Assembly: GCA_947379755.1 (NCBI GenBank)
Contig: CANCOC010000002.1
Span: 1-35,168, forward strand
Source: Alcaligenaceae bacterium
Lineage (GTDB): Bacteria; Pseudomonadota; Gammaproteobacteria; Burkholderiales; Burkholderiaceae_B
Reading direction: 5' to 3'
Length of the DNA stretch: 35,168 nt
Shown: in pieces, positions 306-9,167 of the stretch
How the letters are laid out: each line of letters starts with the position of its first letter
Numbering within the stretch: the first letter of the stretch is position 1
Notes under the pieces: generated by a model
Database searches by the model: none
Told to the model about the DNA's origin: nothing
What the model saw: only the letters and a program-made list of their open reading frames with translations
Translations under genes and position numbers: made by a program

Positions 306-344
306 CCAGGGACTTTAAAAAAAGAATATCCCTGGTTTTTTTTT
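306..344 (+). terminator. Rho-independent terminator of the partial left-edge gene
   Basis: A perfect 7-bp stem (CCAGGGA at 306-312 with TCCCTGG at 329-335) closes an A-rich loop and is followed directly by nine T residues (336-344). The T-run serves only the plus strand. It touches the stop codon of the convergent SPFH gene, so the two genes end almost back to back. Confidence 0.8.
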
Positions 345-1236
345 AGCGTTTTTCATCACCCAAAATCAATGGCAGACCCGAGGGCCCTGAACCAAAGACT
401 ACGGTCTTCGCATTGTTTGACTTTGCAAGTTCTTTGGTTGCTTCGATTCCCATTAAACGCAGATAGTTATCTGTCAGACCGGCATTCACAATATCCTGGA
501 ATCTTTTAATACCAGCCGCCTCGATGACTTTGCGTTCTGACTCTTTTTTGGCTGCTTCAATCTTGTAAAGATATGCCTCGGCTAATTGGGCCTGCTCAAT
601 TTTTCCCTCAATTGCCGTTTGGATCGCTGGAGGAAAAGTAATCGAGTCAAGCTGCGTTGCACTGACTCTGATCAGGCGGATGAAGGTCAGTCCTGGTGGG
701 CTGATCTTATCAATAATGACTCGATCAGCATTAATGGCGATTTCATTCACCATCTGATTGATTCCGCTGGTGAAAGCCTGACTGGATGTCAGCTTGGCAA
801 ACATCTCGCGAGTAATTGAGGTCACCTCAGGCACAACCATTGTCTCAAGATATTCAGGCCCCACGTACTTATGGAGCATTGGCAAGGTCAACCGGTTGAT
901 TTCGTACTGAAATGAGATTTTGACCTTTGATTTCAAGAGATCTGAGGTCAGCACCTCTATTTCAAGCATTTTGGACTGGATGCGTGCGTTGTACTGCGTG
1001 ACCTTGTTCCAGGGCCAGACGACATTGAGTCCCTCTGGGAGCACATCATCCAGATCAACGCCACCACCAAGTGCACGATATAAAACACCTATATTACCTG
1101 CAGGCACAATGATGACGACACGGTTAAACAGAACAATAAAGCTACCTACCAGCACAAACAGCACAAACAGGATGGGCAACAGATGGCTGGTGATCCAGCC
1201 ACTCAATTGTTTAAATTTCTTATTCAAATAGCGCAT
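343..1236 (-). CDS. SPFH/Band 7 (prohibitin-like) membrane protein
   Basis: This 297-residue protein has the SPFH/prohibitin layout. A short basic N-terminus is followed by one strong membrane segment (about residues 18-38), a PHB/Band 7 domain (about 40-230), and a charged, alanine- and glutamate-rich helix (about 205-250) of the kind that forms coiled coils. SPFH proteins assemble as large rings or scaffolds in the inner membrane and organise microdomains or proteases. No NfeD or FtsH partner is encoded beside it. It lies 12 bases after the ABC exporter gene and is the last gene of the four-gene minus-strand run, so it is probably translated from the same message. No good Shine-Dalgarno sequence precedes the ATG, which fits coupling to the upstream gene. 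Family assignment is secure; the link to the exporter is inferred from position. Confidence 0.88.
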   Translation of the reverse strand: MRYLNKKFKQLSGWITSHLLPILFVLFVLVGSFIVLFNRVVIIVPAGNIGVLYRALGGGVDLDDVLPEGLNVVWPWNKVTQYNARIQSKMLEIEVLTSDLLKSKVKISFQYEINRLTLPMLHKYVGPEYLETMVVPEVTSITREMFAKLTSSQAFTSGINQMVNEIAINADRVIIDKISPPGLTFIRLIRVSATQLDSITFPPAIQTAIEGKIEQAQLAEAYLYKIEAAKKESERKVIEAAGIKRFQDIVNAGLTDNYLRLMGIEATKELAKSNNAKTVVFGSGPSGLPLILGDEKR

Positions 1237-1248
1237 TCTGTTTACACA

Positions 1249-2880
1249 TCAAGGGTGAATCGGTTTACCGTTTTCCATGTACAGAACATGGTCAGCAATT
1301 TCGAAATAATGATCATCATGCGTAATCGCAATGACTGTTTTTCCCAAAGAGCGTAACTTTGGAATGATATTTTCATAAAATTCCTGGCGGAACAACGGAT
1401 CCTGATCCGCTGCCCACTCGTCCAGAATAATAAAAGGACGGTTTTCAAGCAACGCAACGATCAGTGCAAGGCGCTTTCTTTGACCTGTTGAAAAGTGAAG
1501 ATCCGAGAACTGCCCATCCCGAACCGTGACTTTATCCTGCATTTTGAACAGTTTAAGCAACTCTTCAATTTTATGCATGTCAGACGCAGGTAAACCATAG
1601 AGTTTTTTAAACAGGTGAAAATCACTGAACACCACTGCAAACAGATCACGGTATGAGCCAGAAGTTGGCTCAGAGATGGGGGCACCATTGACAAGAATCC
1701 TGCCTGAGTCAGGCTGGTAGAGTCCGGTGACGATACGCATCAGCGTCGACTTGCCCGATCCATTGTTACCACGAATGAAGTAAATCTTGCCCACATCAAA
1801 TTGATAGTCAATTGGACCCAGGGCAAATTTTTTGGAGGCGTCCTTGCCACCATATATATAGGTAATATTTTCGAGCTGGATGGACTGCACATCAGTAAAT
1901 GTTTCGTTGATATCTGGCGGTTGGTGCGCAGCACTGATGGCAAGGTTTTCGGCAAGCTCTTCGAGTGTTTTTGCAGCCACGTTCCCAAGCGATAAATTCG
2001 GAATGCTCATCATGATTCCAGACAAGGAACCCGCTAAAAACAAAGCCGTCGTTGCCGCAGTGGTGACATGCAAATAAAAGTCACTGGAAATAACAGGTAC
2101 GATAAAGACCATGATTCCAACAATCACATAGAGCAGAATCTGCAAGTAATTGAAAAAATTGGTGATTGCAACAATTAACAGACCTTTGTCATTATTGACT
2201 TCTTTGGATTGCTCAACCATGTCGCGTGTAATTTCAAACGCACGACTCGAATTCATTTTGATTTCTTTATACCCATTCAGAAAATCAGCATAAATTGCAT
2301 TCACCGCTGCTTCTCTATCGGATACGGCCTGTAATTGTCCGGTGACTTTAAATAACTCAGCCACACCCACCACAAAGATAAAAACAGATGATAAAGAAAT
2401 AATGAAAAAAGCCGTCATTGAAACGGTTGCCATATAAATGGTCAGAAAGAGCAACGTGGCAATCGACTGGCACGACGTGACGATCACGCCTACACACTGT
2501 GAAACAGACTGGGTGTCACGCGCGAGGATCTCCATGATCCGTTCACGTCCGATTTCATCAATCTTGGACAGGTTAGATCTGAACACATCGCTCATGATGC
2601 GAACTTTGTAGCGGTAGATCAAGTCCTGAGTACTGCGAATGTTTTCGTCGTTGGCACGCCGGGTTCCAAACATCAGCATCGTCAACATGAAGGCAAACGC
2701 AAAAAATTGCCATACGACTGTCTTGCCTGCGGTCACATCCGAGGCTGCCATGTTAATGAGTCCGATGATCGCAGTATTCGTCAAACCGACAAATATGGAC
2801 AAGCCGATCATGCGTTTTAATTCTTTGGGGCTTTCGCGACTGAGGAAACTAATTAAATGCGGTTGAATGTTGAGACGCAT
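1249..2880 (-). CDS. Cyclic-peptide-type ABC exporter (PvdE/SyrD/YojI family), fused permease and ATPase
   Basis: This 543-residue half-transporter carries both domains. The N-terminal membrane domain has hydrophobic segments at about residues 25-45, 55-72, 138-175, 240-262 and 272-292. The C-terminal ATPase (about 335-543) has Walker A GNNGSGKST (371-379), signature FSTGQRKR (463-470), Walker B ending in ILDEW (485-489) and an H-loop histidine at 521. A signature with Ser-Thr in place of Ser-Gly-Gly, and the DEWAADQDP stretch, are typical of the cyclic-peptide exporters PvdE, SyrD and YojI. Relatives export siderophore precursors, lipopeptides or microcin J25. No NRPS, lasso-peptide or siderophore biosynthesis gene is visible in the window, so the substrate is unknown. 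It follows the H1-like DUF697 gene by 87 bases and precedes the SPFH gene by 12. Confidence 0.9.
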   Translation of the reverse strand: MRLNIQPHLISFLSRESPKELKRMIGLSIFVGLTNTAIIGLINMAASDVTAGKTVVWQFFAFAFMLTMLMFGTRRANDENIRSTQDLIYRYKVRIMSDVFRSNLSKIDEIGRERIMEILARDTQSVSQCVGVIVTSCQSIATLLFLTIYMATVSMTAFFIISLSSVFIFVVGVAELFKVTGQLQAVSDREAAVNAIYADFLNGYKEIKMNSSRAFEITRDMVEQSKEVNNDKGLLIVAITNFFNYLQILLYVIVGIMVFIVPVISSDFYLHVTTAATTALFLAGSLSGIMMSIPNLSLGNVAAKTLEELAENLAISAAHQPPDINETFTDVQSIQLENITYIYGGKDASKKFALGPIDYQFDVGKIYFIRGNNGSGKSTLMRIVTGLYQPDSGRILVNGAPISEPTSGSYRDLFAVVFSDFHLFKKLYGLPASDMHKIEELLKLFKMQDKVTVRDGQFSDLHFSTGQRKRLALIVALLENRPFIILDEWAADQDPLFRQEFYENIIPKLRSLGKTVIAITHDDHYFEIADHVLYMENGKPIHP

Positions 2881-2914
2881 ATTTCATTAAAAAGAGATAA
2901 ACAACAGGAATATA

Positions 2915-2956
2915 TCTGGAACCTCGGCGGCGATCTCTGGAACCTCAGCAACGATC
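2915..2956. repeat. 21-bp tandem direct repeat, two copies
   Basis: Two adjacent 21-base units (2915-2935 and 2936-2956) match at 18 of 21 positions and lie just after the stop codon of the DUF697/H1-like gene. The unit length is a multiple of three. Read on the minus strand in the frame of the preceding gene, the copies encode EIVAEVP and EIAAEVP. This looks like former or readthrough coding sequence rather than a regulatory repeat. Confidence 0.8.
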
Positions 2957-2967
2957 TCGTTTGAAGA

Positions 2968-3912
2968 TCAGGCCGCTACAAGTGATTTTTTCTTTTTAAA
3001 AAGCTCCTTACCCTTGGCGATCTGCTGGTCAACATAGTACTTCATCTGACTGACGTTAAAGTCGACCAACGTGCCCTTCGATTCGAAGTGTTTCACAAAA
3101 GCATACCCAATGCCGTATGTCGTGGCAAAGGACAAAGCAGGCTCAGCAGTCAGAGAAAACAATGACCCGACAACTGGCATACTTTTTACAACAGCCTTCG
3201 TTGCGGCACTGGCAATTGCCGTTGTCGTGACACCGCCCAGCAAACCACTGACCACCGCGAGTGCGCGTTCGCGTTGAAACCGCACGCCATAAAACTGGCA
3301 CAGGGAGTGAATCATCTTGATCTGAGCCCCTGAAATTGCGATCGTATCCACAAAAGGGACTGGAATAAAGCTGCCAACAACCGACCATTGCGACCAGCTT
3401 TTAACAATCGCAAGCGCTTGAGGGTTGGCGGTTTCAGTCTCTTTTTTAGTACCAGACCTAGTCCAGGCGAGCTCAGCATCGAAAATATCTTCTGAAGTTC
3501 GAGGCTGACTCGCATCCGCTGCTGATACCTCATTGAGGATATCCAGGGAACTCATGCGTGTGTGAGCATCAGAATGGGTTGAGGCAGGCTCGTTGCTCGC
3601 GCTCCCCCCTTCAGTGACCGCGCTGGACGCGACAACCGTCGGGGAGATCGCCTCTGGCTTGCTTGCCGCAGGTTTTTTGATCGGCGTTTTTTTAACTACA
3701 GTTTTTTTAACCGCAGGTTTTTTGACTGTCTTTTTGGCAATGACCACTGATGGCGTCAAGGTTTGGGCTGTTTTTTCAGTCACGGCGGTCGCATCTGGAA
3801 CCCCGGCCGAAGCCACGCGAGGCGACACACTCGCCTTTGCCTTGACCAGACTCGCATCGCTTATAGCGTCCAGTGGATTGGAACGCAGAGTTTTACGCGG
3901 CTTGGTGGCCAT
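2968..3912 (-). CDS. DUF697 (YcjF-like) membrane protein with lysine-rich histone-H1-like N-terminal arm
   Basis: This 314-residue protein has two parts. Residues 1-165 are low-complexity, rich in Ala, Ser, Thr and Pro. A strongly basic block lies at about 60-84, with repeated KK-x-x-KK patterns such as KKPAVKK, resembling bacterial and eukaryotic H1 tails; the extreme N-terminus (TKPRKTLRS) is basic too. Residues 168-310 form a DUF697 domain with the IPVPFVD motif (183-189), GAQIKMI, glycine/alanine-rich hydrophobic segments and a lysine-rich end. DUF697 proteins are membrane-associated and of poorly known role; YcjF of E. coli is one. The gene starts 14 bases after parA. Its domain closely matches the second DUF697 gene at 8625-9167 (TYGIGYAFVKHF against TYGVGQLFVEHF). 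The frame stays open for 26 codons beyond its TGA stop. Confidence 0.82.
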   Translation of the reverse strand: MATKPRKTLRSNPLDAISDASLVKAKASVSPRVASAGVPDATAVTEKTAQTLTPSVVIAKKTVKKPAVKKTVVKKTPIKKPAASKPEAISPTVVASSAVTEGGSASNEPASTHSDAHTRMSSLDILNEVSAADASQPRTSEDIFDAELAWTRSGTKKETETANPQALAIVKSWSQWSVVGSFIPVPFVDTIAISGAQIKMIHSLCQFYGVRFQRERALAVVSGLLGGVTTTAIASAATKAVVKSMPVVGSLFSLTAEPALSFATTYGIGYAFVKHFESKGTLVDFNVSQMKYYVDQQIAKGKELFKKKKSLVAA

Positions 3913-3926
3913 GATGTTCGTACCTT

Positions 3927-4685
3927 TTATTGTGTGCGTTGAATCAATTCAAGCGCCAGCGTTCTGTAATCATCAGACGAACTTGAACTTGGCTTGTACT
4001 GAAGAATGCTTTGCTGAAAAGATGGTGCTTCTGCCAGACGGATACTTTCGTGAATCATGGCCTTAAAAACCTTTTCGCCAAAACTGTCTGTCAAGGCACC
4101 GAGGATATCCTGTGCGTGGCGCGTTCTGAGATCGACTCTGGAGGGAAGAAACCCCAGGAGATTCAGGTCTGGATTCAAAAGCTCACGCACTTCCTCAAAA
4201 GTCTTCATCAGCTGTGCCACGCCCGACAAGGTCATGACATGGGTCGTCACCGGCACCAGCAACTCGTTCGCAGCATTGAGCGCGTTGAGTGTAATCAACC
4301 CCAAAGTGGGAGGCGTATCAATCAAAACAAAATCCCAATCAGCGGATTTCAAGCTTGCAAGCCTGCGTTTGAGGCGACTTTCTGTTGCTAATTCGCCAGC
4401 GAGCACTTTTTCGAGGTAGGCAAGCTCCCTTGAGGCTGGCATGATTTTGAGGTTTTTTACACCAGAATCAAAAATGAGCGTATTGATGTCATCCTTGGTC
4501 GTGAACGCCTCGAAAGATCCTTTTGAATCCGCCTGCATACCTAGCCACTGGCTAGCATTAGCCTGTGGATCCAGGTCGACCACTAAAACCTTTAAGCCCG
4601 TGTCGGCCAGAGCAGCTGCCAAATTGACAACTGTGGTTGTCTTAGCACAGCCGCCTTTCTGGTTAGCAACTGCAATAATCTTCAT
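3927..4685 (-). CDS. Orphan ParA/MinD-type ATPase
   Basis: This 252-residue protein is a complete ParA-family ATPase. It has the deviant Walker A KGGCAKTT (10-17) with the signature lysine at 10 and the catalytic-loop lysine at 15, the VDLDPQAN switch segment (36-43), and Walker B VLIDTPP (120-126). Such ATPases form ATP-dependent dimers on the nucleoid and segregate or position DNA or protein cargo. No ParB and no rep or chromosome-origin genes are nearby, so this is an orphan copy rather than the chromosomal Soj. It is the first gene of the minus-strand run and sits 14 bases before the H1-like DUF697 gene. A partner with a basic N-terminus is what ParA-activating proteins usually have, so the DUF697 protein is the obvious candidate. 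Cargo positioning is inference. Confidence 0.9.
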   Translation of the reverse strand: MKIIAVANQKGGCAKTTTVVNLAAALADTGLKVLVVDLDPQANASQWLGMQADSKGSFEAFTTKDDINTLIFDSGVKNLKIMPASRELAYLEKVLAGELATESRLKRRLASLKSADWDFVLIDTPPTLGLITLNALNAANELLVPVTTHVMTLSGVAQLMKTFEEVRELLNPDLNLLGFLPSRVDLRTRHAQDILGALTDSFGEKVFKAMIHESIRLAEAPSFQQSILQYKPSSSSSDDYRTLALELIQRTQ

Positions 4686-4947: not shown

Positions 4948-5862
4948 ATGCTCACCCATACCGATCAATTGACACCCGTCGATCCGGTCATTCCGCAGGG
5001 CTATCAGCCTGAACGTGCGGACTGGACAATTGATCAAGGCTGGCATCTCTACACAGAAGAAGACCACAATACGTGGAAAATCCTGTTTGAGCGTATGTCG
5101 TTTTTAAAAACGGGCAGGACCTGCGAACTATTTGATCGCGGCCTGCTTGAGTTGCCGCTCGAGTCCACCCATATTCCCGATTTCAAAGTACTTTCCGAGC
5201 GACTCATGCCGCGAACAGGCTGGCAAATCGTTGCCGTACCCGGCCTGGTCCCAGATGAAGTGTTCTTTGAGCACCTCGCCAACAAACGCTTCCCTTCAGG
5301 TTGTACCATCCGCAAACTCGATGGACTGGACTATCAGGAGTATCCAGATGTTTTTCATGATGTGTTCGGTCATGTTCCACTTTTGATGTACCCGGTTGTG
5401 GCCGACTTCATTCAGGCTTGTGGTGCAGCTGCCCTGCAGGCGCACAAACTCGGCCAGAAGGATTTATTAGAGAGAATTTCTCGACTCTACTGGTACACCA
5501 TCGAAGTTGGACTGGTCAGGCAAGACGGCGAAATCAGGAGTTTTGGTGCAGCCATCGCCTCGTCGGAAAAAGAAATTTTATTTTCCCTGCAAAGCGACTC
5601 GCCAAACCGACTGGGCTTTGACATGAGCCGGATTATGCGGACAAAGTACTGGATCTATGACCTGCAGCAATCATATTTCGTTTTGGACCACATCGATCAG
5701 TTGACTGATCTGGTGCGTAACAATTTGTTTGCAGAAACAGCCGTTGGCCTGCTCGATACGCATGACATCAGTGTGGGCGTCGTGACCGCCTCGGATCAGG
5801 TCCTGCACCGTGGCAAGGGTAGCTATCACCAGGAAAAACAATCATGTGCTGTCGCAGCATAA
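4948..5862 (+). CDS. phhA: Phenylalanine 4-monooxygenase
   Basis: This pterin-dependent, non-haem-iron enzyme hydroxylates phenylalanine to tyrosine in the cytoplasm. The 304-residue length fits the bacterial single-domain form. The iron ligands are visible: His137 and His142 in FHDVFGHVPLL and Glu186 in WYTIEVGL. The ATG at 4948 has AGGAAAG in the right place. The tetrahydropterin-recycling enzyme PhhB (pterin-4a-carbinolamine dehydratase) and an aromatic-amino-acid regulator are not beside it, as they often are elsewhere. Instead, a 2-oxoglutarate dioxygenase-like gene follows after 30 bases in the same direction, suggesting joint transcription. The gene is divergent from the ParA-DUF697-exporter-SPFH run. 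Confidence 0.95.
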   Translation: MLTHTDQLTPVDPVIPQGYQPERADWTIDQGWHLYTEEDHNTWKILFERMSFLKTGRTCELFDRGLLELPLESTHIPDFKVLSERLMPRTGWQIVAVPGLVPDEVFFEHLANKRFPSGCTIRKLDGLDYQEYPDVFHDVFGHVPLLMYPVVADFIQACGAAALQAHKLGQKDLLERISRLYWYTIEVGLVRQDGEIRSFGAAIASSEKEILFSLQSDSPNRLGFDMSRIMRTKYWIYDLQQSYFVLDHIDQLTDLVRNNLFAETAVGLLDTHDISVGVVTASDQVLHRGKGSYHQEKQSCAVAA

Positions 5863-5892
5863 AACAAGTGTTTGCTGGAATTTTAAATAAAA

Positions 5893-6699
5893 ATGAATGA
5901 AACTGATCTGAAGTCGTTTGATCTCAATGGATTCGTCGTCCAGGAAGGCGCACTGACTGAAGCCAACATTGATAGCCTGCTTGAACGAATCGCCCAGTTC
6001 GAAAAAACCGAATATCCCGGTCATGTTCTGGAGAAGCACGGTAATAGTTATCGTGCGTTTCACGGCTGCCACCTGTATGACGCCCATTTCGAAGAACTGA
6101 CACGTTTGCCACAGATGCTGGGGCCTGCCGAGCAAATTCTGAAGGAACAGGTCTACATTCATCAGTTAAAAGTAAATCTGAAGCAGGCATTTTCAGGTGA
6201 AATGTGGCCCTGGCATCAGGACTATATTTACTGGAAAAAAGAAGATCAGATCCCGACAGATGCAATCGTGAGCGTCATGATATTTCTGGATGACGTCACA
6301 GAATTCAACGGACCACTTTTTTTCATCCCCAAGTCACAGAATTTGGGTTGCATCGACACGAATAAAGCACCCGACTCACCTGAAGGGTGGGAAGGAAATG
6401 TCAGCGCCACCCTCACTTATCAGGTGGACGAAGACACGGTCAGTGCGTTAGTCAAGGACGGTGGTCTGTTTTCAGCCACGGGCAAAAAAGGTACCGCAGT
6501 CTGGTTCCATGGCAATCTTGTTCATGCCTCACCACCAAATATCTCTCCAAATGCCAGACGCCTGGTGATTTTGACGTATAACGCGATCAGCAACACACCT
6601 GGAGCACAGATTCCCAGCGCAAAACAACGTCCTGAATTTCTGAATGGCCGCGACCGGGCTGCGTTAAATATGCTGGAGAGAGTCAGCCTGCTAGGCTGA
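5893..6699 (+). CDS. Phytanoyl-CoA dioxygenase (PhyH)-family Fe(II)/2-oxoglutarate oxygenase
   Basis: This 268-residue protein has the PhyH fold markers. The facial triad starts at His108-x-Asp110 (WHQDYIYW) and ends at His211 in HGNLVHASPPN, and Arg222/Arg223 are placed to bind the 2-oxoglutarate carboxylate. Family members hydroxylate diverse small molecules, including phytanoyl-CoA, ectoine and amino acids in natural-product pathways, so the substrate cannot be named. It lies 30 bases after phhA, a pairing that makes an aromatic amino acid or derived product a reasonable guess. The 3' end of the gene forms part of a perfect hairpin that includes the stop codon. Confidence 0.88.
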   Translation: MNETDLKSFDLNGFVVQEGALTEANIDSLLERIAQFEKTEYPGHVLEKHGNSYRAFHGCHLYDAHFEELTRLPQMLGPAEQILKEQVYIHQLKVNLKQAFSGEMWPWHQDYIYWKKEDQIPTDAIVSVMIFLDDVTEFNGPLFFIPKSQNLGCIDTNKAPDSPEGWEGNVSATLTYQVDEDTVSALVKDGGLFSATGKKGTAVWFHGNLVHASPPNISPNARRLVILTYNAISNTPGAQIPSAKQRPEFLNGRDRAALNMLERVSLLG

Positions 6700-6724
6700 C
6701 TCTTGATGCGAAGCGTCGCAAGAG
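6679..6724. terminator. Two overlapping hairpins between convergent genes
   Basis: Hairpin one pairs 6679-6688 with 6694-6703 (10 bp, 5-base loop) and includes the TGA of the PhyH gene. Hairpin two pairs CTCTT and GCGA (6700-6704, 6708-6711) with TCGC and AAGAG (6716-6724) around an AGCG loop, with a GAT bulge. The two share 6700-6703, so full formation of one limits the other. Neither is followed by a T-run. A role in bidirectional termination or mRNA-end protection is likely but unproven. Confidence 0.45.
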
Positions 6725-6734
6725 AAGTGAAAGA

Positions 6735-8333
6735 CTAGAGGACTTCCTGCGCACTGCCAAACAAGCGCTCTGCTTTCAGACCAAGGCTCTGGCACGCCTG
6801 AACGAGTTGCTTGGCATTGATCACGGGCGGTGTATTTTCATCCGGATCAATACTGGTAATGTATTGAAGCCAGGGCTCGGCACCCATCGCGTACACATAC
6901 ACACTTTCACATCCCAGACTTTGAATCACTTTCATGCCGCGTTCGAAGTCAGACCCATTTAAACGGCGTGACTGATCTTTTTTACGATCCACGGCAATGG
7001 GGAGCAAGGGGCCATACGTCCAGCTAAAAGGCGCGCCCAGGCATTCCATGCCAATGAACAGCGTATCAATCTTGCCAAAGATCGATCTGATCTGGTCATA
7101 AAGCAAAGGTTCAAGGTTGTTACTGTCCGCGGCAAATAACAAACGATTGCCGGCAGCCTCGACCAGCCAGGCAGCTTTGGTCCGGATATCCAGATCACCG
7201 TGCTCACCCAGGAATGGGAGTGCAGTGAGTTTCAGGTCACCCTTTTCGACAGAACCTAGTGGCCCCAGTTCAACCACATGTTTGAATCCAATTGATTCAA
7301 GCATGAGCTTGAGCGAAGGATCTGCAAGCCCCCCTCCTCCAGCTGGCACCACGATGGTACCAATCTTGTATCTCAAGGCAAGCAGCGTTTCCAGCAAAAC
7401 GTGATCAGCATGATTATGTGTCAAGACAACATAATCAATATGCTCAGGCAGGTCTGCCAGCACAAATCTTTCGATGCCACCATCAGAGTCATAAGCAACG
7501 ATCGGATCAACAAGCACGTTGGTACCATCAGGCGCCTGGACAGAGACACAAGCATGGCCGAAATAACGCCAGCGTGTCTGACCAAGAGGCGCATTGACAG
7601 GCTTTGGAGCCTGAGGTGTTGCGACCAAAAAGCTTCGGAATAATTCCGCCTTCGCACCTGTCAAACCGAGTCGCTCCATCACCACGCTCACTGGCAGTGG
7701 CTCTGCGCGCAAACGTCCTAGAAAATCATAGACCTCGGCACTGAAAGGCTCCATCAACTCATAGGCATTGACTTGAGGCATACGAGGCGTACTGAAGGCA
7801 AAGGGCCTCTCGTCACCTTTGGCACGATAGATCATTGCACTCTGAACCGAAGGGTTAAAAACCGGGCTGCGATACAGCAAAGGCTCAATCACGCGTAAAT
7901 CCGGAAAACCACCCATCGTATACAAGAGTTCGACATATCCTCGAACGGGTGCAGGTAAATTGGCGTAATGCTGCTCAATGCTGAATCCATCGCCGTTTTT
8001 AATCACCAGGCGAAACGCCTCACGCAACGCTTCACCAAAGGCAATCTGTGCAGACTGCCTGGCTCTGGTTGACTGAATCAGGGCTTTGACAGCCTCGACT
8101 TCACTGGCAGGCAAGTCGACAAAAGGTCCGCCGCGCAGACTTGGGTTTTTACAGGCTGCGGCATGCACATCAGGCGCACTCACAAAGGACTCGAGCAAGG
8201 TCAAATGCCGATAAACAATATTCATTGCAGAGGTTGCAGGCGAAATCAGGTGTGACCACGCGTACCACCGCTCTACTAAAGGCTCAATCACCACATTCGG
8301 CTGCAGCATCACCAGTTCATCTGTCACGTTCAT
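6735..8333 (-). CDS. Two-domain metallo-beta-lactamase-fold hydrolase
   Basis: This 532-residue protein has an N-terminal region of about 250 residues that I do not recognise, followed by a metallo-beta-lactamase domain of the UlaG-like class (about 255-520). The metal motif HNHADH is at 306-311, with further candidate ligands at His378 (GEHGD) and Asp403 (AADSNN). The ATG at 8333 was chosen over an upstream TTG at 8351; neither has a strong ribosome site. Small MBL hydrolases of this class have about 250-350 residues, so the extra N-terminal domain is notable. It converges on the phhA-PhyH pair and diverges from the second DUF697 gene. The region to that gene (8334-8624) is AT-rich and holds a TATAAT box at 8455-8460 without a clear -35. 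Substrate unknown. Confidence 0.85.
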   Translation of the reverse strand: MNVTDELVMLQPNVVIEPLVERWYAWSHLISPATSAMNIVYRHLTLLESFVSAPDVHAAACKNPSLRGGPFVDLPASEVEAVKALIQSTRARQSAQIAFGEALREAFRLVIKNGDGFSIEQHYANLPAPVRGYVELLYTMGGFPDLRVIEPLLYRSPVFNPSVQSAMIYRAKGDERPFAFSTPRMPQVNAYELMEPFSAEVYDFLGRLRAEPLPVSVVMERLGLTGAKAELFRSFLVATPQAPKPVNAPLGQTRWRYFGHACVSVQAPDGTNVLVDPIVAYDSDGGIERFVLADLPEHIDYVVLTHNHADHVLLETLLALRYKIGTIVVPAGGGGLADPSLKLMLESIGFKHVVELGPLGSVEKGDLKLTALPFLGEHGDLDIRTKAAWLVEAAGNRLLFAADSNNLEPLLYDQIRSIFGKIDTLFIGMECLGAPFSWTYGPLLPIAVDRKKDQSRRLNGSDFERGMKVIQSLGCESVYVYAMGAEPWLQYITSIDPDENTPPVINAKQLVQACQSLGLKAERLFGSAQEVL

Positions 8334-8624
8334 ATTACCCGTCGGAATCAATCAAAATAACAGGATGCCACAAGCCCGGCACTTTTGACCTCTGCTCACC
8401 CTCAAAAAGCTTTAAATAGTGAGGAATTGCGAGCATATTTCAAGGTGAGATATATATAATCAGATTTGGTGCAAGGCTGATTTTCCCGTTAGAGAAGAAT
8501 TACTGATAAGTTTTTGAAATATATAAATAAACTTCCAGCATTGCAGCACGTCATGTTAATCTTTACACGAATGTTTTTTAGCTAAATCGCTCATACTTTT
8601 TTAAAAATTTCCAGAGGAAATATT

Positions 8625-9167
8625 ATGACAGTTGCTACTGCTGAAGTTTCAACATCCCCCGAGGCTGAGCAAATCAGCACAGTTGGCACCCCAGAGCAAT
8701 TGGCTCAGGCAAAAGAAGTGATCAAGCACAACGTGGCCTGGTCTGCTGGCGCCGGGCTGGTGCCCGTTCCTGGCCTGGATATTGTCGCCATTACTGGCGT
8801 CCAGCTGAAAATGATCAACGAATTGTGCAATGTCTACGGTCAGACATTCAAAAAATCCTTGGCTCGTCCGATTGTGATCAGCCTGATTGGCAGCCTGGGT
8901 GCGAGCATGCTTGCACCAGCGGTCGCCATGACAACCCTCAAGCTTCTTCCTGGTATTGGCGCACTGCTGTCAGGCACGGCACTGGCAGGTACTTCAGCTG
9001 CAATCACCTACGGCGTTGGTCAACTGTTTGTTGAACATTTCCAGAAAGGCGGCACACTTGAAAACTTCAACCTGATCGCAGGTCGTTGCAATTTCAAGAA
9101 AAAAGTTAAAGATGCAATGAACGAAAAATCAGAAGTCACGATCGAAGAAACTCCAGCACAAGCTTAA
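8625..9167 (+). CDS. DUF697 (YcjF-like) membrane protein, short paralogue
   Basis: This 180-residue protein consists almost wholly of a DUF697 domain (about 28-160). It carries the VPVPGLDIVAITGVQLKMI motif (46-64), two glycine/alanine-rich hydrophobic segments (about 82-105 and 107-130), the TYGVGQLFVEHF block (128-139), a lysine cluster (158-162) and an acidic tail ending EETPAQA. It lacks the long basic arm of the paralogue at 2968-3912 but aligns with that protein's domain along its length. The ATG follows AGAGGAAA at good spacing. It is monocistronic and ends at a strong terminator. Function unknown. Its presence a few kilobases from the paralogue, with phhA, PhyH and MBL genes between, suggests a local duplication. 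Confidence 0.85.
   Translation: MTVATAEVSTSPEAEQISTVGTPEQLAQAKEVIKHNVAWSAGAGLVPVPGLDIVAITGVQLKMINELCNVYGQTFKKSLARPIVISLIGSLGASMLAPAVAMTTLKLLPGIGALLSGTALAGTSAAITYGVGQLFVEHFQKGGTLENFNLIAGRCNFKKKVKDAMNEKSEVTIEETPAQA

Follow-up and report, generated by a model that had tools for sequence, protein, structure and literature searches.

BcsQ, a ParA-type ATPase, is encoded together with the membrane synthesis-export machine of cellulose synthase operons. Other ATPases of the ParA/MinD type position cellular cargoes (McdAB with carboxysomes, ParC/PpfA with chemoreceptors, FlhG), and their partners act via a positively charged, disordered N-terminus, the remainder of the partner binding the cargo (PMC10241942). 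In Pseudomonas, the nonribosomal peptide synthetases (NRPSs) of the pyoverdine siderosome are located, together with a peptide exporter, at the inner membrane, and the authors of its description ask whether accessory membrane proteins aid NRPS localisation and export (PMC11172790). In Thalassobaculum, a cyclic peptide exporter and a prohibitin-family gene are mentioned in passing, in an excerpt of the source, beside a 95-kb cluster of NRPS and polyketide synthase (PKS) genes (PMC12016528). The present work concerns a module of four genes that encode a ParA/Soj-type ATPase, a membrane-type protein with a DUF697 domain, an ABC exporter of the cyclic-peptide-export type and an SPFH protein. These genes lie in the window, the 35,168-nucleotide stretch of DNA that was analysed, which is the first 35 kb of contig C2 (CANCOC010000002.1) of an Alcaligenaceae bacterium (GCA_947379755.1); the contig start falls inside another gene.

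The module shares with the ParA/MinD systems a Walker ATPase and a candidate partner with a charged, disordered N-terminus (PMC10241942). Unlike in these systems, this partner belongs to the DUF697 membrane-type proteins, and an NRPS/PKS-exporter assembly is the apparent cargo. To our knowledge, the partner is unrelated in sequence to McdB, ParB and TlpT. With respect to BcsQ, the ParA of the window scores below the NCBIfam BcsQ cut-off, and no cellulose genes are present among the window proteins scanned. The siderosome description, in its available sections, names no ParA, DUF697 or SPFH component (PMC11172790). The Thalassobaculum pair corresponds to the ABC-SPFH half of the module, with DUF697 and ParA unnamed and no role proposed for the pair in the excerpt (PMC12016528). 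In our searches of the open-access literature, no description of a DUF697-type adaptor or of an NRPS/PKS-exporter cargo for a ParA was found. The principle of a ParA, an armed adaptor and a cargo is already known, and it is the type of adaptor and the apparent NRPS/PKS-exporter cargo that, as far as these searches show, are new.

We propose that the four genes would serve an NRPS/PKS biosynthetic cluster as an accessory unit, in which the DUF697 and SPFH proteins would form a membrane scaffold around the exporter, so that synthesis and export of the product would take place at one site. In the genus, the Soj-like ParA would bind the nucleoid and touch the peptide that begins the DUF697 protein, at the tip of a flexible linker, or, in one group of loci, the corresponding peptide of a separate arm protein. 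ATP-driven cycles of capture and release would then space the assemblies and split them between daughter cells. On the sequence evidence, we regard the core of this proposal, a DUF697/SPFH scaffold that joins megasynthase and exporter and that ParA positions in the genus via the arm, as evenly poised between right and wrong; the physical assembly, the ParA-arm contact and the purpose of positioning are what we infer. The question at stake is how megasynthases are held together, coupled to an exporter and shared between daughter cells. The module offers candidate components and a peptide to mutate, and Tistrella is a tractable producer carrying a ParA-less core. If the proposal is true, biosynthetic assemblies would join the cargoes of ParA ATPases, and the module would provide a genome-mining marker for NRPS/PKS clusters.

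Conservation of the four-gene module

The original prediction described four same-strand genes with gaps of 14, 87 and 12 bases, which the coordinates of the open reading frames (ORFs) confirm (Table 1). Its family identities also stand, with Pfam and NCBIfam scores over the cut-offs: ParA reaches 171.6 bits for AAA_31/ParA, the DUF697 protein 35.1 bits for PF05128 (cut-off 27.7) and the SPFH protein 74.5 bits for Band_7/SPFH (cut-off 23.6) in Pfam, and the exporter reaches 322 bits for the NCBIfam model TIGR01194, cyclic peptide export ABC transporter (cut-off 286.2). The SPFH protein exhibits, by eye, a hydrophobic segment at its N-terminus. A PHROGs search gave two matches only, one to a generic ParA and one of the SPFH type, and a promoter scan gave 5 sites, which is below the level in shuffled sequences (10.6). 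Because the four genes share a strand and are separated by no more than 87 bases, their arrangement suggests a single operon.

The locus was compared with those of 32 genomes of the genus, counts of neighbours being limited to loci where the contig continues. The order ParA, arm/DUF697, exporter, SPFH is kept in the relatives wherever contigs extend. The gene after ParA encodes the arm-bearing protein in all 23 loci with ParA off the contig end, the window included; the arm is fused to DUF697 in 17 of them and is a separate protein in six, after which DUF697 and the exporter follow. SPFH comes after the exporter in 19/19 continuing loci, 18 with ParA plus L047, where the contig starts inside the DUF697 gene. 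Strand and short gaps are conserved in 23/23 loci although protein identity to the window is only about 32-75%; the gaps range from -55 to 87 bases, the -55 stemming from an over-long ORF start. This recurrence of order, strand and gaps rules out chance adjacency, and the four genes are conserved together, the lack of which had been named as a refutation of the prediction.

A DUF697 homologue is present in 27 of the 32 genomes, and a ParA of the module type (at least 291 bits) in 25. A second, distinct ParA type, of about 160 bits, is present in 28. The ParA of the window shows 57-75% identity to the module ParAs of the genus and 37-39% identity to this other type.

The N-terminal arm and the ParA ATPase

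The DUF697 protein of the window comprises a conserved N-terminal peptide (residues 1-16), a variable linker up to about residue 160 and a helical DUF697 domain (about 164-313). In the 17 orthologues with a fused arm, the first 16 residues follow the consensus MATxxRKTIxxNPLDxI, of which M1, T8, N12, P13 and L14 are invariant, and carry a net charge of +1 to +3. The six separate arm proteins begin similarly. The linker is of low complexity and variable in length and charge, the C-terminal DUF697 domain is conserved again, and the length of the whole protein ranges from 258 to 422 amino acids across orthologues. The original prediction had described the DUF697 protein as H1-armed. An H1-like, lysine-rich stretch exists in the window, yet where a script could delimit the linker, which was the case for 10 of 17 orthologues (counting the window), its net charge ranges from -14 (L042) to +16 (L045). 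As the linker charge varies in this way while the first 16 residues stay conserved, the H1-like arm is ruled out as the key feature, and the conserved 16-mer, rather than the H1-like repeat, is the candidate ParA-contacting part.

This 16-mer resembles the charged, disordered N-termini of the partners of ParA ATPases (PMC10241942). The arm protein exhibits both features, the charge being read from its sequence and the disorder from a structural model, in which the DUF697 domain is helical and residues 1-158 mostly show a predicted local distance difference test (pLDDT) score below 50, a weak sign of disorder. A search of the DUF697 profile against solved structures gave no match at E up to 1. 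In the six loci with a separate arm, this protein (family F17) is placed between ParA and a short DUF697 protein, so that the arm and the domain are naturally divided between two proteins.

The ParA of the module has intact ATPase residues. The deviant Walker A motif KGGCAKTT and residues D39 and D123, which we take to be ATPase residues, are invariant in 23/23 module ParAs. The same holds for R187 and R216, which align with Arg residues of Soj that are presumably DNA-binding, and among solved structures ParA is matched best by segregation/Soj-type proteins. The prediction of an orphan ParA was borne out: no ParB, and with it no sign of a ParABS system, was found among the 8 window proteins scanned with Pfam (parS being outside the search), and the arm protein is its constant neighbour. 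If ParA were a relic of DNA partitioning from a plasmid or mobile cluster, its adjacency to the module would be historical, which its ParA/Soj family membership and the location of some related DUF697 loci on megaplasmids would fit. However, no ParB was found beside it in that scan, and adjacency, arm and ATPase residues are constrained despite strong divergence, so that we hold this origin to be very improbable.

BcsQ has been proposed to act in cellulose synthesis as a local switch, and ParA could likewise be a local assembly switch or regulator of the synthase or exporter, with no nucleoid-based positioning, in a module that still serves NRPS/PKS export and membrane assembly. ParA passes the Pfam CBP_BcsQ cut-off (45 vs 21.3 bits), and most related modules outside the genus are without ParA (see below), which makes it an add-on. 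In contrast, the 92.5 bits that ParA obtains with the NCBIfam BcsQ model lie under the curated cut-off of 157.85 and do not place it in BcsQ, and the Soj-type structural matches and the two invariant Arg residues, in the DNA-binding role assumed above, also speak against a purely local switch. We consider this alternative rather unlikely and retain the positioning of the scaffold by a nucleoid-bound ParA as our preferred explanation.

Megasynthase genes within and beyond the genus

An NRPS condensation (C) domain was found in 26 of the 32 genomes of the genus, all of which are also DUF697-positive, and the five genomes without DUF697 are also without a C domain. In the 27th DUF697 genome (G004), a PKS that begins with an AMP-ligase adjoins the module in place of a C domain. 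The co-occurrence of DUF697 and the C domain gives p=3e-5 in a Fisher test, uncorrected for relatedness. Genomes with the module ParA comprise 24 with a C domain and one without (G004), and those lacking it comprise two with and five without (p=6e-4, likewise uncorrected). The DUF697 found in G009, G018 and G030 is of the armless type only. Separately, at L065, L066, L076, L078 and L080, an armless DUF697 gene adjoins a phosphopantetheinyl transferase gene, apart from the module.

Megasynthase genes are also physically linked to the module, in the genus as well as in stretches outside it. The stretches fetched for the 25 genomes with the module ParA contain a C or ketosynthase (KS) domain in 11 cases, an accessory gene (MbtH, type II thioesterase, phosphopantetheinyl transferase or CmlA) in 17 and one or the other in 22, the remaining three lying on contigs of 6-9 kb. 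G008 has a C domain on the module contig, outside the count of the script. In G027, a 3317-aa NRPS with three condensation/adenylation/carrier modules lies beside the module, and the NRPS genes adjoin MbtH-DUF697-ParA-DUF697-ABC. MbtH and a type II thioesterase are found beside the module in G022, and CmlA-type hydroxylases are among the module neighbours in the genus. The cargo is probably an NRPS/PKS factory plus exporter, a megasynthase link that was absent from the original prediction.

Outside the genus, the DUF697 protein was searched for with a profile, which gave matches in 14 of 398 other genomes sampled across the order and in 29 of 397 sampled across the phylum. The set studied comprises 28 stretches, 25 from genomes and three from plasmids picked from 18 matching plasmid records. 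We counted 25 of the 28, leaving out L126 and L158 (GTPase-type N-termini) and L159 (no DUF697 match); L067-L069 (GTPase-type) and weaker profile matches, including those of about 413 aa in one genus (f15/g56), are also uncounted. The 25 are non-independent, with six genomes from one genus (g273), and the reference set for their count itself contained the proteins of Tistrella as well as the L123 and L145 ParAs. N-termini were judged by eye on unverified start codons, and the 20 control stretches were hand-picked on DUF697-bearing contigs, five of them in the window's genus. SPFH is present in the same stretch as DUF697 in 19/25 cases (controls, 0/20), a C or KS domain in 17/25 (controls, 1/20, the single positive, L176, lying on the contig of L152) and an exporter match above 150 bits in 11/25.

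ParA, in contrast, is present in only two of the 25. In L123, it lies beside an NRPS and shares 4 bases with a DUF697 gene, the product of which begins with MSDSQKKPPRRRLYQND; in L145, it lies on the opposite strand about 4 kb from a basic-start DUF697, in a PKS locus. In each of 12 genomes searched outside the genus, the top-scoring ParA is of the ordinary kind (120-168 bits). ParA is a dispensable, lineage-specific part, an add-on in the genus and perhaps twice more, whereas DUF697, SPFH and exporter recur beside NRPS/PKS genes outside the genus, mostly without ParA.

Two plasmids illustrate this core. The annotation of Skermanella plasmid pSM-2 lists NRPS, MbtH, prohibitin family, cyclic peptide export ABC, hydrolase, hypothetical and DUF697. 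Tistrella plasmid pTM3 carries DUF697-ABC-SPFH in the same order as the window, followed by a type II thioesterase gene in the opposite orientation, and within 45 kb the module adjoins a bimodular NRPS with two KS domains. In strain L17, the genes described on the flanks of the didemnin cluster include one for a type II thioesterase and eight for transporters (PMC10811503). The Tistrella exporter obtains 321.6 bits with TIGR01194. Because of those flanks and of the location of the didemnin cluster, which we take to be on pTM3, the pTM3 locus is probably this cluster.

SPFH proteins of the HflKC/prohibitin type form cages, and the SPFH protein of the window has 7 matches among solved structures, prohibitins without exception. 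DUF697, exporter and SPFH could thus serve chiefly in self-resistance and quality control, with cages that guard exporter or membrane from a membrane-active product and with ParA and positioning secondary; the pairing of exporter and SPFH beside NRPS/PKS genes, in Tistrella included, would agree with this. Nevertheless, such a role does not account for the N-terminal peptide that is conserved beside ParA in 23/23 loci, and we judge it improbable. Returning to the positioned scaffold, we advance in its broadest form only a tentative view, which we doubt somewhat more than we believe: metabolite factories would be positioned on the nucleoid at the expense of ATP, with ParA as the tether of a DUF697/SPFH membrane microdomain in which megasynthases and exporter are gathered, DUF697-SPFH-exporter would be a general, overlooked NRPS/PKS scaffold of the Pseudomonadota, didemnin probably included, and ParA would have been recruited more than once.

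Several observations count against the positioned scaffold. The RK pair of the arm is present in a majority only and is absent as such in L048, L050 and L056, and the structural model obtained for the DUF697 protein is of low quality (mean pLDDT 50.3). The DUF697 proteins of L149, L152, L153 and L154, from one other genus, combine a basic N-terminus with a long linker, and no ParA is present in the stretches fetched for them; an arm therefore need not imply a ParA, and a strict rule that the arm occurs only with an adjacent ParA is broken. The fragmented genomes G009 and G018 are NRPS-positive with no module ParA found, L071 and L072 (in G028 and G020) are additional DUF697-ABC-SPFH sets without ParA, and the NRPS-negative genomes may be one clade, kinship being ignored by the p-values. 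Finally, the NRPS of the window genome itself lies at the end of contig C42 and not on the window contig. As judged from sequence, the earlier proposal of an exporter-bearing membrane patch placed by ParA agrees with the conserved unit, the ParB-less ParA and the adaptor-like DUF697 protein, whose N-terminal peptide is basic, and is revised as to the relevant part of the arm, the cargo and the role of ParA. As a separate observation, the extra sets L071 and L072 lie near sensor-kinase and, by eye, response-regulator genes.

Neighbouring genes in the window

The NRPS pieces on C42 show 52% and 58% identity (NRPS1) and 63% identity (start of NRPS2) to the module-adjacent NRPSs of G027, which is the nearest relative (ParA 75%, ABC 75%, the ABC being cut by the contig end). 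We infer that C42 and C2 are parts of a single cluster; the NRPS linkage of the module in the window genome itself is proposed by analogy with its relatives.

Table 1. Positions of the module genes and of their neighbours in the window.
Feature	Position	Strand	Remark
C-terminal end of an F4 family gene, cut by contig start	1..264	+	secreted-looking protein of ~300 aa near the module in many relatives
SPFH/Band 7 protein, 297 aa	343..1236	-	
Cyclic-peptide-export-type ABC exporter, 543 aa	1249..2880	-	TIGR01194 above cut-off
DUF697 protein, 314 aa	2968..3912	-	proposed ParA-to-membrane adaptor
ParA/Soj-type Walker ATPase, 252 aa	3927..4685	-	ParB not nearby
Phenylalanine 4-monooxygenase-like (PAH) gene	4948..5862	+	TIGR01267 above cut-off
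PhyH-family dioxygenase	5893..6699	+	ectoine-hydroxylase-like, under cut-off of that model
CmlA-type diiron beta-hydroxylase	6735..8351	-	70% identical to G008 and G022 cluster copies
Second DUF697 protein, no basic arm	8625..9167	+	likely right cluster border

In NRPS pathways, carrier-bound amino acids are the substrates of CmlA-type hydroxylases, and the PAH, PhyH and CmlA-like genes (4948-8351) look like tailoring enzymes for hydroxylated product residues. All three recur behind NRPS genes in G022, where a gene 59% identical to the PAH-like gene comes after the NRPS genes; genes 65% identical to the PhyH gene lie beside NRPS genes in G022 and G008. The second DUF697 protein shows 70% identity to the G008 copy at the same border, and the block that follows it (Bug receptor, 10259, AtuA, DctA) matches the NRPS-cluster border on contig C137 of G008 with 66-88% identity.

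Two further families accompany the module in relatives. Members of the F6 family (SSSFRDMSAAYRE; L048:3905-5197 and relatives) are lipoprotein-like proteins of about 430 aa, found in 18 of 40 clustered loci; they have no Pfam or NCBIfam match, and none was found in the first 20 kb of the window's contig. The F4 family, likewise without a match in Pfam or NCBIfam, is found in 21/40 clustered loci (for example L034:11335-12246, L036:3166-4098 and L038:5278-6264 on the - strand) and is a candidate fifth component of the module. In the window, the F4 gene has, by eye, a terminator-like end at 305-345 that the scan does not list, comprising an inverted repeat (CCAGGGA...TCCCTGG) followed by a T run on the + strand.

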